In this document: positions 21,730-27,159 of the stretch, piece by piece
Layout of the letters: every line of letters starts with the position of its first letter
Numbering within the stretch: the stretch's first letter is position 1
Origin: Bradyrhizobium oligotrophicum S58
GTDB lineage: Bacteria > Pseudomonadota > Alphaproteobacteria > Rhizobiales > Xanthobacteraceae
Reading direction: 5' to 3'
Length of the DNA stretch: 64,000 nt
NCBI RefSeq assembly: GCF_000344805.1
Contig: NC_020453.1
Span: 3,691,001 to 3,755,000 of the forward strand
Notes under the pieces: model-generated
The model's input: only the letters and a program-made list of their open reading frames with translations
Told to the model about the DNA's origin: nothing
Databases searched by the model: none
Translations under genes and position numbers: made by a program

Positions 21730-21837
21730 CGCCTCGGGCAGGGCATTGCCCTGGGAAAGTCCAGAGGCTGCCGGTTGCGGCGCGAAAGCGGCCTCTGCTA
21801 TAGGGCGGGTTCACCTTGTCCCGTGAGGCCCTATATA

Positions 21838-22125
21838 ATGTCGGTCGATGCCGCCACCGTCCGCCGGATCGCGCAATTGGCGCGGATCGCTGTCACTGAC
21901 GCCGAGGTCCCGCATCTGCAGGGCGAGCTCAATGCGATGCTGGCCTTCGTCGAGCAGCTCTCGGAGGTCAATGTCGAGGGCGTCGAACCGATGACCTCGG
22001 TGACCCCGATGGCGATGAAGAAGCGCCAGGACGTGGTCACGGACGGCGACATCGCCGACGACATCGTCAAGAACGCGCCGGCGACCGAGAACCACTTCTT
22101 CCTCGTGCCGAAGGTCGTGGAATAG
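21838..22125 (+). CDS. gatC: Asp/Glu-tRNA amidotransferase subunit C
   Basis: 95-residue GatC, the small subunit that stabilises the GatA/GatB pair of the tRNA-dependent amidotransferase that makes Gln-tRNA(Gln) and Asn-tRNA(Asn). The sequence is canonical: [27 protein letters not shown] and a GVEPM-containing linker. Start at ATG 21838 with GAGG about 9 nt upstream. First gene of the gat operon, on the same strand as a small CLLC protein, gatA, another small protein and gatB. Confidence 0.95.
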
Positions 22126-22184: not shown

Positions 22185-22418
22185 ATGTGCCTGCTCTGCG
22201 ACGATGAAGCGGCCTACAAGGCCTATATGGATTATCTCGACGCGATGGAGCGGCAGGGCAAGGCCGCCGATCCGGACAAGGCCGTGAACGAGATCCTCGA
22301 CCAGCTCGAGGCGTTCAACGCCAACAAGACTCCCCCCAAGAAGAACAAGTTCTTCGCCGACGACACCACCGACGACAAGACGCTCTCCCCATTCTTCTGC
22401 AGCCCGATCAACAAATGA
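22185..22418 (+). CDS. Small conserved protein inside the gat operon, unknown function
   Basis: 77-residue hydrophilic protein starting [21 protein letters not shown], with a CxxC pair at the N-terminus and a third Cys near the end, and predicted helical. Its stop codon overlaps the gatA start in an ATGA arrangement, so it is translationally coupled to gatA and almost certainly expressed. The N-terminal CLLC could bind a metal or form a disulphide. I do not recognise a characterised family. Its place between gatC and gatA makes a role linked to the amidotransferase, or simple co-regulation, the obvious options. Confidence 0.75.
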
Positions 22419-23890
22419 CCGATTTGACTTCGCTGACGCTCGCCGATGCCCGCCAGGGCCTCGCGGACAAGACCTTCACGTCGCTCGAGCTGACCGACGC
22501 CCATCTCAAGGCGATGGAAGAGGCGCGGGCGCTCAATGCCTTCGTGATGGAGACGCCGGAGAAGGCGCGCGATATGGCGCGCGACGCCGACGCCAAGATC
22601 ACCAAGGGCGAGGGCGGGCCGCTGGCCGGCATTCCGCTGGGGATCAAGGACCTGTTCGCCACCAAGGACGTCCGCACCACCGCGTGCTCGAAGATCCTCG
22701 GCAATTTCGTGCCGACCTACGAGTCGACCGTGACCTCGCAGCTGTGGCGCGACGGCGCGGTCATGCTCGGCAAGCTCAACAATGACGAGTTCGCGATGGG
22801 CTCGTCCAACGAGACCTCGTGCTTCGGCCCGGTGGGCAACCCCTGGCGCCGCGAGGGCTCCAATACCACGCTGGTCCCGGGCGGCTCGTCCGGCGGCTCG
22901 GCGTCCGCCGTGGCGGCGCTGTTGTGCATGGGCGCGACCGCGACGGATACCGGCGGCTCGATCCGCCAGCCCGCCGCGTTCACGGCAACCGTCGGCATCA
23001 AGCCGACCTATGGCCGCTGCTCGCGCTGGGGTATCGTCGCCTTCGCTTCGTCGCTCGACCAGGCTGGCCCGATCGCGCGCACCACGCGTGACGCCGCGAT
23101 CCTGCTGCGCTCGATGGCCGGCCACGACCCGAAGGATACGACCTCGGTCGATATTCCGGTGCCGGACTACGAGGCCGCGATCGGGAAGTCCCTGAAGGGC
23201 ATGAAGATCGGCATCCCCAAGGAATATCGCCTCGACGGCATGCCGGCCGAGATCGAGAAGCTGTGGAGCGAAGGCCGCAAGTGGCTGGAGGCCGCAGGCG
23301 CTGAAACCGTCGAGGTGTCGTTGCCGCACACGAAGTATGCGCTGCCGGCCTATTACATCGTGGCGCCGGCGGAGGCGTCCTCGAACCTCGCCCGCTACGA
23401 CGGCGTGCGATACGGCCTGCGCGTGCCGGGCAAGTCGATCGGCGAACTCTACGAGAACACCCGTGCCGAAGGTTTTGGGCCCGAGGTGCGGCGCCGCGTC
23501 ATGATCGGCACCTATGTGCTCTCGGCCGGCTATTACGACGCCTATTACATCCGGGCGCAGAGGGTCCGTACCCTGATCAAGAAGGATTTCGAGGACTGCT
23601 TCGCCAAGGGCGTGAGCGCGATCCTGACGCCGGCGACGCCGTCGGCCGCCTTCGGCATCGGCGAGAAGGGCGGCGCCGATCCGGTGGAGATGTATCTCAA
23701 CGACATCTTCACGGTGACCGTGAACATGGCGGGCCTGCCGGGCATCGCGGTGCCGGCCGGCAAGGACGCGCAGGGGCTGCCGCTCGGGCTGCAACTGATC
23801 GGACGTCCGTTCGACGAGGAGACGCTGTTCTCGCTCGGCGAGGTCATCGAGCAGGCGGCGGGACGCTTCACGCCCGTTCGGTGGTGGTGA
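22415..23890 (+). CDS. gatA: Asp/Glu-tRNA amidotransferase subunit A
   Basis: 491-residue amidase-signature subunit that hydrolyses glutamine to supply ammonia to GatB. The Ser-cisSer-Lys triad region is intact: [10 protein letters not shown] (Lys near residue 75), [13 protein letters not shown] (Ser near 153) and [13 protein letters not shown] (nucleophile Ser near 177). Normal length for the family. The start overlaps the stop of the preceding small gene by 4 nt. The 3' end overlaps the next small gene by about 10 nt. Confidence 0.97.
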
Positions 23891-24183
23891 GCTTACCCGA
23901 CTTCAAGACGAGCCTCGCGGGCGCCGCGCCCGCGACCGGCCTTTCGCCCGTGCTGACGGGTCTGTGGTGGCTGGGCAAGGGCGACTGGGACCGGGCGCAC
24001 GGGATCATTCAGGACGAGACCGGCCGCGACGCGGCCTGGGCGCACGCGCATCTGCATCGCGTCGAGGGCGATCTCGGCAATGCCGCCTATTGGTATCGCC
24101 AGGCCGGGCAGAAGGTCGCGACCGATGCGTTGGATATCGAATTCGAGCGGATCGTCTCCGCGCTTCTTGGATACAGAGAATAG
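23881..24183 (+). CDS. Small conserved protein between gatA and gatB
   Basis: Roughly 100-residue product with [46 protein letters not shown] and a terminal helix. The pattern is that of a short helical-hairpin (TPR/Sel1-like) protein. Three consecutive GTG codons (23881, 23884, 23887) can start it; all overlap the gatA 3' end, so it is translationally coupled. No function is known to me. It is the last high-GC gene before the lower-GC insertion in front of gatB, and its stop lies inside the left arm of an inverted repeat. Confidence 0.75.
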
Positions 24184-24211
24184 CCTATGCCGTTTAGGAC
24201 AAGGCTATTCT
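24177..24211. repeat. 9-bp inverted repeat at the left edge of the gatB insertion
   Basis: AGAATAGCC (24177-24185) and GGCTATTCT (24203-24211) are perfect inverted copies with a 17-nt spacer. They lie exactly where base composition drops from typical chromosomal GC to the lower-GC open frame fused to gatB. This could be a hairpin terminator for the upstream operon segment, a regulatory hairpin for the inserted gene, or a remnant of the insertion event. No matching copy was seen near 25050. Confidence 0.45.
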
Positions 24212-24232
24212 GTTGGTGCTAGGGGAATGCAC

Positions 24233-26536
24233 ATGACATTCGAAGTACGGCAAATTCTGGATGTAGGCGTAAGTCACCCGGTTGTGGCGCGGCTTGGGCC
24301 CCAGACCAGCGAACTCACGAATTGGCTGAGCATCTCCCAAGAGAAGAAGCTTGAGCTTTCGCACGTCTACGCGATCACACTTACCCAGCGGCTTATTGAG
24401 TGTCACAAGGTTCGCGACTCTCTAACCGAGAAAATGAACGAAAGCCTTGAAAGGCTGGGCGATAAGCAAAGTCAGCAAGCTCGCGAAGTTCCTCACGTTA
24501 TTGGGCTCCAAAAGATCGTCGAAGGCTTCTTATACGAGGCCAAAGACTATCTTCGGGACTTGCTGAAGCTTTTTGAAATTCTCTATGACTGCAAACTTAA
24601 AGAGGCCAGCGCTTTCGCTGATTTGCAGGAAAACGGAGAGAGCAAGCTCTCCAAGTGGGCTTGCCTTAAGTTTGGCGATGAGCATCGTCTGACGAAACTC
24701 ATTCGATCCGAAGAGAGTTGGACTTCCGAGCTTGTTCGCAAAAGGAATGCCATCGAGCATCCCGGAGAAAAGTCGGGAACTCTGAAGATTGAGAATATTC
24801 GATCGGCAGATCAAGTCGGACGCTATGTTCCTCCTACCTGGACGCGTACAGGGCAGCCGGACAGCAGTATCCTAGCGGATATGGACATCTACCTCGACAA
24901 TATGCTGACCCTTGCAGAGGACCTGTTGGCGTCCGTTGTTTTGGAAGAGTTAGCGCCCAGAGGACTTACGATTCAAGAGATACCGGTCGAGCTGAGGGAT
25001 CGGCAATGTCCAATTCGGCTCAAGGTTGTCTTGTGGGGGAACCTCCCGTTACCGCCGGGGAGCTCCAACCAAGGCAAGCTGATCAAGGGCGCCACCGGCG
25101 ACTGGGAGGTCGTGATCGGCATGGAGATCCATGCCCAGGTGACCTCGAAATCAAAACTGTTCTCCGGCGCCTCGACCGCGTTCGGCGGCGACCCCAACAG
25201 CCACGTCTCGCTGGTCGATGTGGCGATGCCGGGCATGCTGCCGGTCATCAACGAGGAGTGCGTGCGCCAGGCCGTGCGCACCGGGCTCGGCCTGAACGCC
25301 AAGATCAACCTGCGCTCGGTGTTCGACCGCAAGAACTATTTCTATCCCGACCTGCCGCAGGGCTACCAGATCAGCCAGTACAAGGACCCGATCGTGGGCG
25401 AGGGCGAGGTCACGGTCGAGCTCGACGGCGGCAGGACCGCCACTGTCGGCATCGAGCGCCTGCACATCGAGCAGGATCCGGGGAAGATGCTGCACGACCA
25501 GTCGCCGTCGCTGTCCTATATCGACTTCAACCGCTGCGGCGTGGCGCTGATGGAGATCGTCTCCAAGCCTGATATCCGCGACGCCGAGCAGGCCAAGGCG
25601 TACGTGACCAAGCTGCGGTCGATCATGCGCTATCTCGGCACCTGCGACGGCGATATGGAAAAGGGATCGCTGCGCGCCGACGTCAACGTCTCCGTGCGCA
25701 AGCCGGGCGGGCCGCTCGGCACCCGCTGCGAGATCAAGAACATCAACTCCATCAGCTTCATCGGCCAGGCGGTCGAAGCCGAGGCGCGGCGCCAGATCGA
25801 GATCATCGAGGACGGCGGCGTGATCGAGCAGGAAACCCGCCGGTTCGATCCCGACAAGGGCGAGACGCGCTCGATGCGCTCCAAGGAGGAGGCGCACGAC
25901 TACCGTTACTTCCCGGACCCGGACCTGTTGCCGCTCGAGTTCTCGCAGGCTTTCGTCGACGAGCTGAAGGCGGCGCTGCCGGAGCTGCCGGACCAGAAGA
26001 CGGCGCGCTTCATCGCCGATCTCGGCCTCTCGCCCTACGACGCCTCGGTGCTGGTGGCCGAGCGCGAGAGCGCCGCGTTCTATGAAAGCGTGCTGGAGGC
26101 GCTGTCCGACCGCGGCCGGGACGGCAAGCTCGCCGCCAACTGGGTGATCAACGAGCTGTTCGGGCGGCTCAACAAGGAAGGCCGCGACATCGCGTCGTCT
26201 CCCGTCTCGGCCGCTCAGCTGGCCGCGATCGTCGCGCTGATCGGCGAGGGCACCATCTCCGGCAAGATCGCCAAGGACCTGTTCGAGATCGTCTGGAGCG
26301 AGGGCGGCGATCCGCGCGAGCTGGTGGAAAGTCGCGGCATGAAGCAGGTGACCGACCTCGGCGCGATCGAGAAGGTCGTCGACGAGATCATCGCGGCCAA
26401 TCCGGACAAGGTCGCGCAGGCCATCGCGAAGCCGCAGCTGGTCGGCTGGTTCGTCGGTCAGGTGATGAAGTCGTCGGGCGGCAAAGCCAATCCGCAGGCG
26501 GTCAACGATCTCCTGAAGAGCAAGCTCGGCATCTGA
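24233..26536 (+). CDS. gatB: HEPN-like domain fused in frame to Asp/Glu-tRNA amidotransferase subunit B
   Basis: One uninterrupted 767-codon frame. Residues ~281-767 are a normal GatB, which phosphorylates Glu/Asp-tRNA and receives ammonia from Gat[48 protein letters not shown], then the tail domain. Residues 1-~260 are foreign: helix-rich, lower in GC with different codon use, and carrying RNAIEH at 171-176, the RNxxxH motif of HEPN nucleases. I see no toxin partner. Start chosen at ATG 24233 (AGGGGA upstream); ATG 24227 is also in frame. No good GatB start lies near the junction; TTG 25031 is the only candidate that keeps the conserved N-terminus. The cell may therefore make a HEPN-GatB fusion, or initiate internally. 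GatB identity is certain; the fusion as a real protein and its RNase activity are inference. Confidence 0.88.
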
Positions 26537-27054: not shown

Positions 27055-27159
27055 ATGGCCAAGAAAGCGAAGAAGGCGAAGAAGGCAGTGAAGAAGGTCG
27101 CGAAGACCGCGGCGAAGAAGACTGCCAAGAAGACCAAGAAGGTCGCCAAGAAGAAGTAA
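27055..27159 (+). CDS. Lysine/alanine-rich histone H1-like small peptide
   Basis: 34-residue product MAKKAKKAKKAVKKVAK... ending AKKK, over half lysine with alanine, valine and threonine, like the C-terminal tails of histone H1 and bacterial H1-like DNA-binding proteins. A strong GGAGGG site lies 4 nt before ATG 27055, supporting translation. Such basic peptides bind nucleic acid non-specifically; a nucleoid or RNA-condensing role is inferred. It is preceded by an unusually long leader region and followed by an 8-bp stem (27161-27180) without a T-run. Short low-complexity genes like this are often missed. Confidence 0.7.
   Translation: MAKKAKKAKKAVKKVAKTAAKKTAKKTKKVAKKK

Follow-up and report, generated by a model that had tools for sequence, protein, structure and literature searches.

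HEPN Ribonucleases and the Fused gatB Gene

HEPN ribonucleases (RNases) are usually silenced by antitoxins or sensor ATPases, and in the toxin HepT the tyrosine lying two residues after the histidine of the RX4HXY motif is the AMPylation site. According to the HEPN superfamily survey (Anantharaman et al. 2013, PMC3710099), PrrC and RloC are HEPN RNases that cut tRNA anticodon loops and are silenced by other domains or partners. The HEPN nuclease of Cas13a also cuts tRNA anticodon loops, with tRNA(Lys), tRNA(Glu), tRNA(Gln), and tRNA(Thr) as preferred substrates (PMC11042736). Here, we analyzed a stretch of 64,000 nucleotides, hereafter the window, from the genome of Bradyrhizobium oligotrophicum S58 (contig NC_020453.1, positions 3,691,001 to 3,755,000 of the forward strand; 8,264,165 bases in a single contig), in which a predicted HEPN-like domain is joined in frame to GatB. 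No HEPN–GatB fusion is described in the open-licence literature, as represented mainly by titles and abstract openings, and as far as this literature shows the locus would combine a HEPN-type effector with a new partner; the word "amidotransferase" is absent from the main text of the HEPN survey (PMC3710099).

The fused gene is a single open frame of 767 codons (24233–26536, + strand) encoding the N-terminal domain (N-domain) and GatB. The frame stays open 5′ of 24233 up to an ATG at 24080, and this part overlaps a 100-aa gene in another frame. GatB_N (PF02934, residues 293–575, 389.5 bits) and GatB_Yqey (PF02637, residues 620–765, 167.8 bits), both above the Pfam cutoff, are the only families found in the product. 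As both domains are present, the GatB half is complete. The GC content of the N-terminal part is 0.47–0.57 in 300-base segments, and its GC content at third codon positions (GC3) is 0.57 for residues 1–266, compared with 0.92 in the remainder of the frame and 0.90 in gatA. Residues 1–266 look foreign in origin. The initial annotation, which had described a lower-GC protein joined to a complete GatB, was correct on this point. The cluster comprises, in order, a gatC-like open reading frame (ORF), a 77-aa ORF, gatA, the 100-aa small gene, and the 767-codon frame. The assignment to GatB relies on its two domains and on gatA in the cluster, gatC being recognized by translation and position only. 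The features are as follows:

21775..22125, + strand: gatC-like ORF opening the gat cluster (from translation, position, and resemblance)
22415..23890, + strand: gatA, Amidase family (PF01425, 477.8 bits)
23881..24183, + strand: small gene of 100 aa (without a Pfam family above cutoff; homology to relatives stops at about 24171)
24171..25072, + strand: foreign segment replacing about 26–33 bp that include the native gatB start codon (blastn against relatives)
24177..24211, no strand assigned: hairpin in the leader, a 10-bp perfect inverted repeat at the left boundary of the foreign segment (single copy in the genome; RNA fold z −3.1)
24221..24226, + strand: Shine-Dalgarno-like AGGGGA before ATG 24233 (read in the sequence; putative role)
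24233..25030, + strand: predicted HEPN-like N-terminal domain, residues 1–266 (family alignment, predicted fold, and tree)
24743..24760, + strand: R171-N172-A-I-E-H176, putative RNase motif (sequence and family alignment)
25031..25078, + strand: predicted flexible linker, residues 267–282, with in-frame TTG 25031 and AAGG upstream as a possible internal start (predicted local distance difference test, pLDDT, and start-codon list)
25079..26536, + strand: complete GatB; no other gatB found in the genome (Pfam and genome search)

Like the HEPN superfamily RNases (PMC3710099), the N-domain is predicted to be helical and carries an R-N-x3-H motif, that is, Rx4H with a polar residue after the arginine, and members of its family occur in phage-like contigs and beside recombinases. 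Unlike them, it matches no curated family and its predicted fold has short beta strands after the motif; the fused protein also lacks any MNT, ABC-ATPase, CARF, or restriction module. HepT of the MntA–HepT pair (5yep, 6m6w, and 7ae8) differs in that the N-domain is fused to a housekeeping enzyme and has G178, a glycine nearly invariant in its family, in place of the HepT tyrosine. No MNT antitoxin was found beside the fused gene, where the neighbors are the small gene and GatB, or among ten Pfam-scanned neighbors of the relatives. Whereas PrrC and RloC carry ABC-ATPase modules and are associated with restriction systems, the partner here is GatB and no ABC-ATPase was found.

A Foreign Segment in Place of the gatB Start

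GatB is present in all 60 genomes of the genus that were searched, in one of them (G061) as a 45-residue piece only, and was found once in the S58 genome. Thirty gatB loci were retrieved; 29 came from relatives, and in each of these gatB starts with an ATG of its own close to the expected position. In blastn comparisons, left-flank homology stops at 24167–24171 in 18 of these relatives and at 24110–24154 in three, one further relative showing only a 30-bp piece and seven no match. Right-flank homology restarts at 25073–25080 in 29/29. Fourteen relatives align up to 24170 and again from 25073 or 25075, leaving a gap of 26–33 bp that contains the gatB start; the gap is 36–86 bp where alignments end earlier. 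Given these boundaries and the short gap holding the start codon, about 900 bp therefore substitute for the native gatB start. This agrees with the earlier proposals that the native start is gone and that the extra domain lies between the gatA-linked small gene, which directly precedes gatB in 21/29 relatives, and gatB.

The foreign segment supplies the leader hairpin, the Shine-Dalgarno-like AGGGGA, and ATG 24233. The hairpin spans the stop of the small gene, shortly 5′ of the putative ribosome-binding site for the fused frame, and is possibly a leader control element or a relic of the insertion. No direct repeat could be placed at both edges of the segment, only short or imperfect ones being listed. 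We rejected an insertion-sequence remnant, as long direct repeats are absent at the two edges and the hairpin has no second copy in the genome. In the stretch of residues 240–296, in-frame ATG, GTG, or TTG codons are limited to TTG 25031 and GTG 25112. The latter already lies within GatB, and TTG 24926 and TTG 24941 are further upstream, within the N-domain; of the candidate internal starts ahead of GatB proper, TTG 25031 is the nearest.

The genome encodes a GlnRS (full-length match to TIGR00440, 720.8 bits, above cutoff) and no AsnRS above cutoff, the best match to TIGR00457 reaching 95 bits versus the 342.6 needed. Without AsnRS, GatCAB must supply Asn-tRNA(Asn). As AsnRS is absent above the cutoff and the sole gatB is fused, the fused gene must therefore yield a functional GatB, whether as the full fusion or via an internal start. 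This replaced start, single gatB, and lack of a recognizable AsnRS, together with the location of some relatives on mobile elements, would also suit a selfish gene that persists by its position: excision would remove the start of an essential gene, and the RNase need not serve the host. We judge this improbable. The active-site residues are conserved, and the two trees presented below suggest recombinational exchange between fused and unfused alleles, by which the domain could be removed.

Motif and Predicted Fold of the N-Terminal Domain

The motif RNAIEH is located at residues 171–176, where it had been annotated. In a family alignment of 65 rows (69 hits, five short ones left out), R171, N172, and H176 are invariant in all rows, and R-N-x3-H fits the pattern Rx4-6H with a polar residue after the arginine. 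K104-x3-R108 is invariant on another helix, without an invariant acid before it, and E229 is also invariant. A second conserved acidic residue, in the form Ex3[KR], is found in many but not all HEPN families and is not required, according to the survey (PMC3710099). In its predicted fold, the N-domain shows a moderate-scoring resemblance to HEPN toxins, which are among the structural matches. Single-protein scans of the N-domain against Pfam, NCBIfam, PADLOC, and PHROGs gave no convincing match, and a PDB sequence search gave no useful one; a viral structure library returned no E value below 0.001, an RNaseLS-like protein ranking third (E 0.51). The motif and the predicted fold thus support the initial assignment of the N-domain as HEPN-like, without recognition by any curated profile. 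The full-length model (predicted template modeling score 0.50) shows two folded units joined by a linker, residues 268–280, under pLDDT 50. The same is true of parts of the GatB half, and the model gives no usable placement of the N-domain relative to GatB.

Ten Fused Proteins Share Partner and Junction

We searched with the whole frame and considered the best 120 of 8,000 scored proteins. Among these 120, the top nine matches (P0071–P0079, 662–798 residues) align over both halves. Seven are from jgi, one from ena, and one from a partial NCBI record of a metagenome-assembled genome labelled Terriglobales. A search scored on residues 1–270 among long proteins only (3,846 candidates) returned nine proteins, identical to P0071–P0079 and all GatB. 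The ten fused proteins, including that of S58, therefore have the same partner and the same junction, and P0071–P0073 are, like the S58 protein, exactly 767 residues long. A one-genome accident was rejected on the basis of these nine further database proteins, and sequence comparison shows the N-domain–GatB architecture to be recurrent. In this strain the linker is unlike the others, which would fit a sequencing or assembly error joining two genes in this genome. Yet P0071–P0073 are separate database records with identical length and junction, which refutes such an error for the architecture; for this strain we consider it very unlikely.

N-domain identity among the ten proteins is 52–91%, and 16 family-invariant residues are kept wherever they are covered, residues 20–24 being outside coverage in four proteins truncated at the front; the only exception is H176Q in P0077. 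These values bear on the possibility that the fusion is mere hitch-hiking, the HEPN domain gaining expression while doing a solitary job or none, and GatB working as before with a tolerated tail or being made from TTG 25031, with no tRNA link. The flexible linker of the model and, in this strain, the TTG with AAGG upstream are in keeping with this explanation, and the low GC3 of the N-domain suggests a fairly recent arrival in this strain. However, partner and junction are the same in ten proteins whose N-domains have diverged to this extent, the invariant residues are kept, and, in a protein-level comparison that addresses ATG starts, the linkers of the fused proteins have no conserved Met. 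We regard hitch-hiking as rather unlikely.

An accessory domain that binds RNA and helps GatCAB to hold tRNA, without catalysis, appears quite improbable, as R-N-x3-H is kept in nine of the ten fused proteins. Such a role would be consistent with the probable RNA binding of HEPN domains devoid of the motif, mentioned in the survey (PMC3710099), and with the H176Q change. P0077, with Q at this position, also has the longest branch among fused N-domains, as if its catalysis had been lost.

A different and apparently unrelated N-domain (residues 1–255) is found on the GatB of P0113, at the same junction, the GatB half being 90% identical. Relatives of this other domain occur in four plasmid records (28–39% identity) and in 11/195 genomes of the genus. 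Mobile genes may have entered repeatedly at the 5′ end of gatB.

A Scattered Family of Free-Standing Relatives

Members of the N-domain family are mostly free-standing proteins of about 280 residues, belong to no curated family, and are scattered over bacteria. We analyzed 21 loci in genome contigs of Bacillus, Fictibacillus, Halanaerobium, Desulfuromusa, Photobacterium, Mesorhizobium, Bradyrhizobium, and others. At 20 of them the relative is an ORF of 220–338 residues; L022 has no intact ORF. Comparison of neighboring ORFs of at least 80 aa within 7 kb (E value 1e-4) gave seven matches in five locus pairs; L010 and L014, with a recombinase region in common, account for three of the seven. With so few matches, there is therefore no widely shared partner gene, and a toxin–antitoxin pair was rejected on this ground. 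A Pfam scan of ten neighbor proteins identified a phage integrase at L008 and a serine recombinase at L014.

Relatives were also found in four viral contigs. In a phage-like contig, a free-standing relative (L062:4986–5807) is encoded between the terminase and portal genes, an interval that is a typical position for accessory (moron) genes. The relative in L061 is near an invertase/integrase-type gene and that in L063 adjoins an integrase. Annotated phages and annotated plasmids were both rejected as the source, with matches in 0/50,697 phage records and 1/72,556 plasmid records (27.7% identity). In overlapping genome draws, 8/391 genomes at the family level and 3/397 at the order level had a match, and the GatB-fused form was confined in both to the genome of the fused strain; a second family draw with another center gave the same seven other matches.

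Some distant relatives deviate from the usual form. In these draws, L056 is 30% identical over residues 13–224, followed by unrelated sequence in a long frame, and L060 is 27% identical over residues 145–268, with the motif RNNLEH, at the end of a frame of more than 600 codons. These two are possibly other HEPN-like fusions with non-GatB sequence, or frames merely open in GC-rich DNA. L063, L064, L023, L024, and L071 form a distant, longer subfamily (337–341 aa) with an extra N-terminal stretch and the common domain.

The Two Halves Have Different Histories

In a tree of 74 N-domain sequences (10 fused and 64 free), the ten fused ones form one clade (100/100) nested among the free forms. The GatB tree includes 53 sequences, the ten fused and 43 others including P0113, picked from the 120 listed with a lean to Bradyrhizobium. 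Here this strain is sister to the unfused P0080 (100/100), an ordinary Bradyrhizobium GatB of 492 aa that is 97% identical to its GatB half but has no N-domain and its own Met start. P0074 branches among other unfused proteins, and the remaining eight fused ones are outside the unfused group, P0075 and P0078 on long branches. Well-supported GatB branches force three changes, which could be one gain and two losses. Constraining the ten fused GatBs to one clade costs 117.8 log units (p-AU 1.9e-42), and simple vertical inheritance of the fused gene was rejected. The GatB of this strain is 74% identical to that of the fused P0075, the protein with the closest N-domain (72%).

As the fused N-domains form one clade and the GatB halves do not, domain and GatB have therefore been reshuffled by recombination. 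Either the domain, with its junction, was transferred from one gatB background to another, or fused alleles gave way to plain ones in some lines; both, as read from the trees, amount to recombination here. The allele or N-domain that reached this strain had probably been fused beforehand. A single gain, with plain alleles later taking its place in some lines, is possible; repeated independent joinings, also possible, would be less likely because the N-domains form one clade with one junction. The earlier view that a mobile HEPN gene landed at this locus stands insofar as the stand-alone family is partly on mobile elements. The single event that it implied does not, given nine other fusions on several GatB backgrounds.

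A Possible Role for the Fused Domain

The retained active-site residues, the repeated pairing with GatB, and the partial location of the free form on phage-like elements suggest that an RNase of the defence type is attached to a tRNA-handling enzyme. The reading we prefer, to which we give nearly even chances, is that a laterally spread and probably catalytic HEPN-type RNase has been fixed at the N terminus of GatB as one of its domains, dormant and serving as a conditional shut-off of translation. The domain would normally be held silent on GatB, since unrestrained RNase activity attached to an essential enzyme would be lethal. Disturbed translation or tRNA amidation, for instance on phage attack, would release the RNase and RNA near GatB would be cut; the most plausible targets would be tRNA(Asn) and tRNA(Gln), whose cleavage would halt translation. 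As part of an essential protein, the domain would be constantly expressed and its loss hindered. A more specific proposal, possible though doubtful, is that GatCAB acts as both housekeeping enzyme and sensor, the HEPN domain being freed on the complex's own tRNA substrates under phage attack or stress, and that long gatB is a mobile immune allele swapping with short gatB.

If correct, the fusion would offer a natural and testable case of an immune-type effector inside core metabolism, with an indispensable translation enzyme as partner, and of a housekeeping gene whose two alleles, one bearing the effector and one lacking it, are interchangeable. The analysis also reveals an uncharacterized HEPN-like family extending from Bacillus to Bradyrhizobium.

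Elsewhere in the window, 27055–27159 holds a short Lys/Ala-rich frame (MAKKAKKAKKAVKKV...) with a histone H1-like composition.
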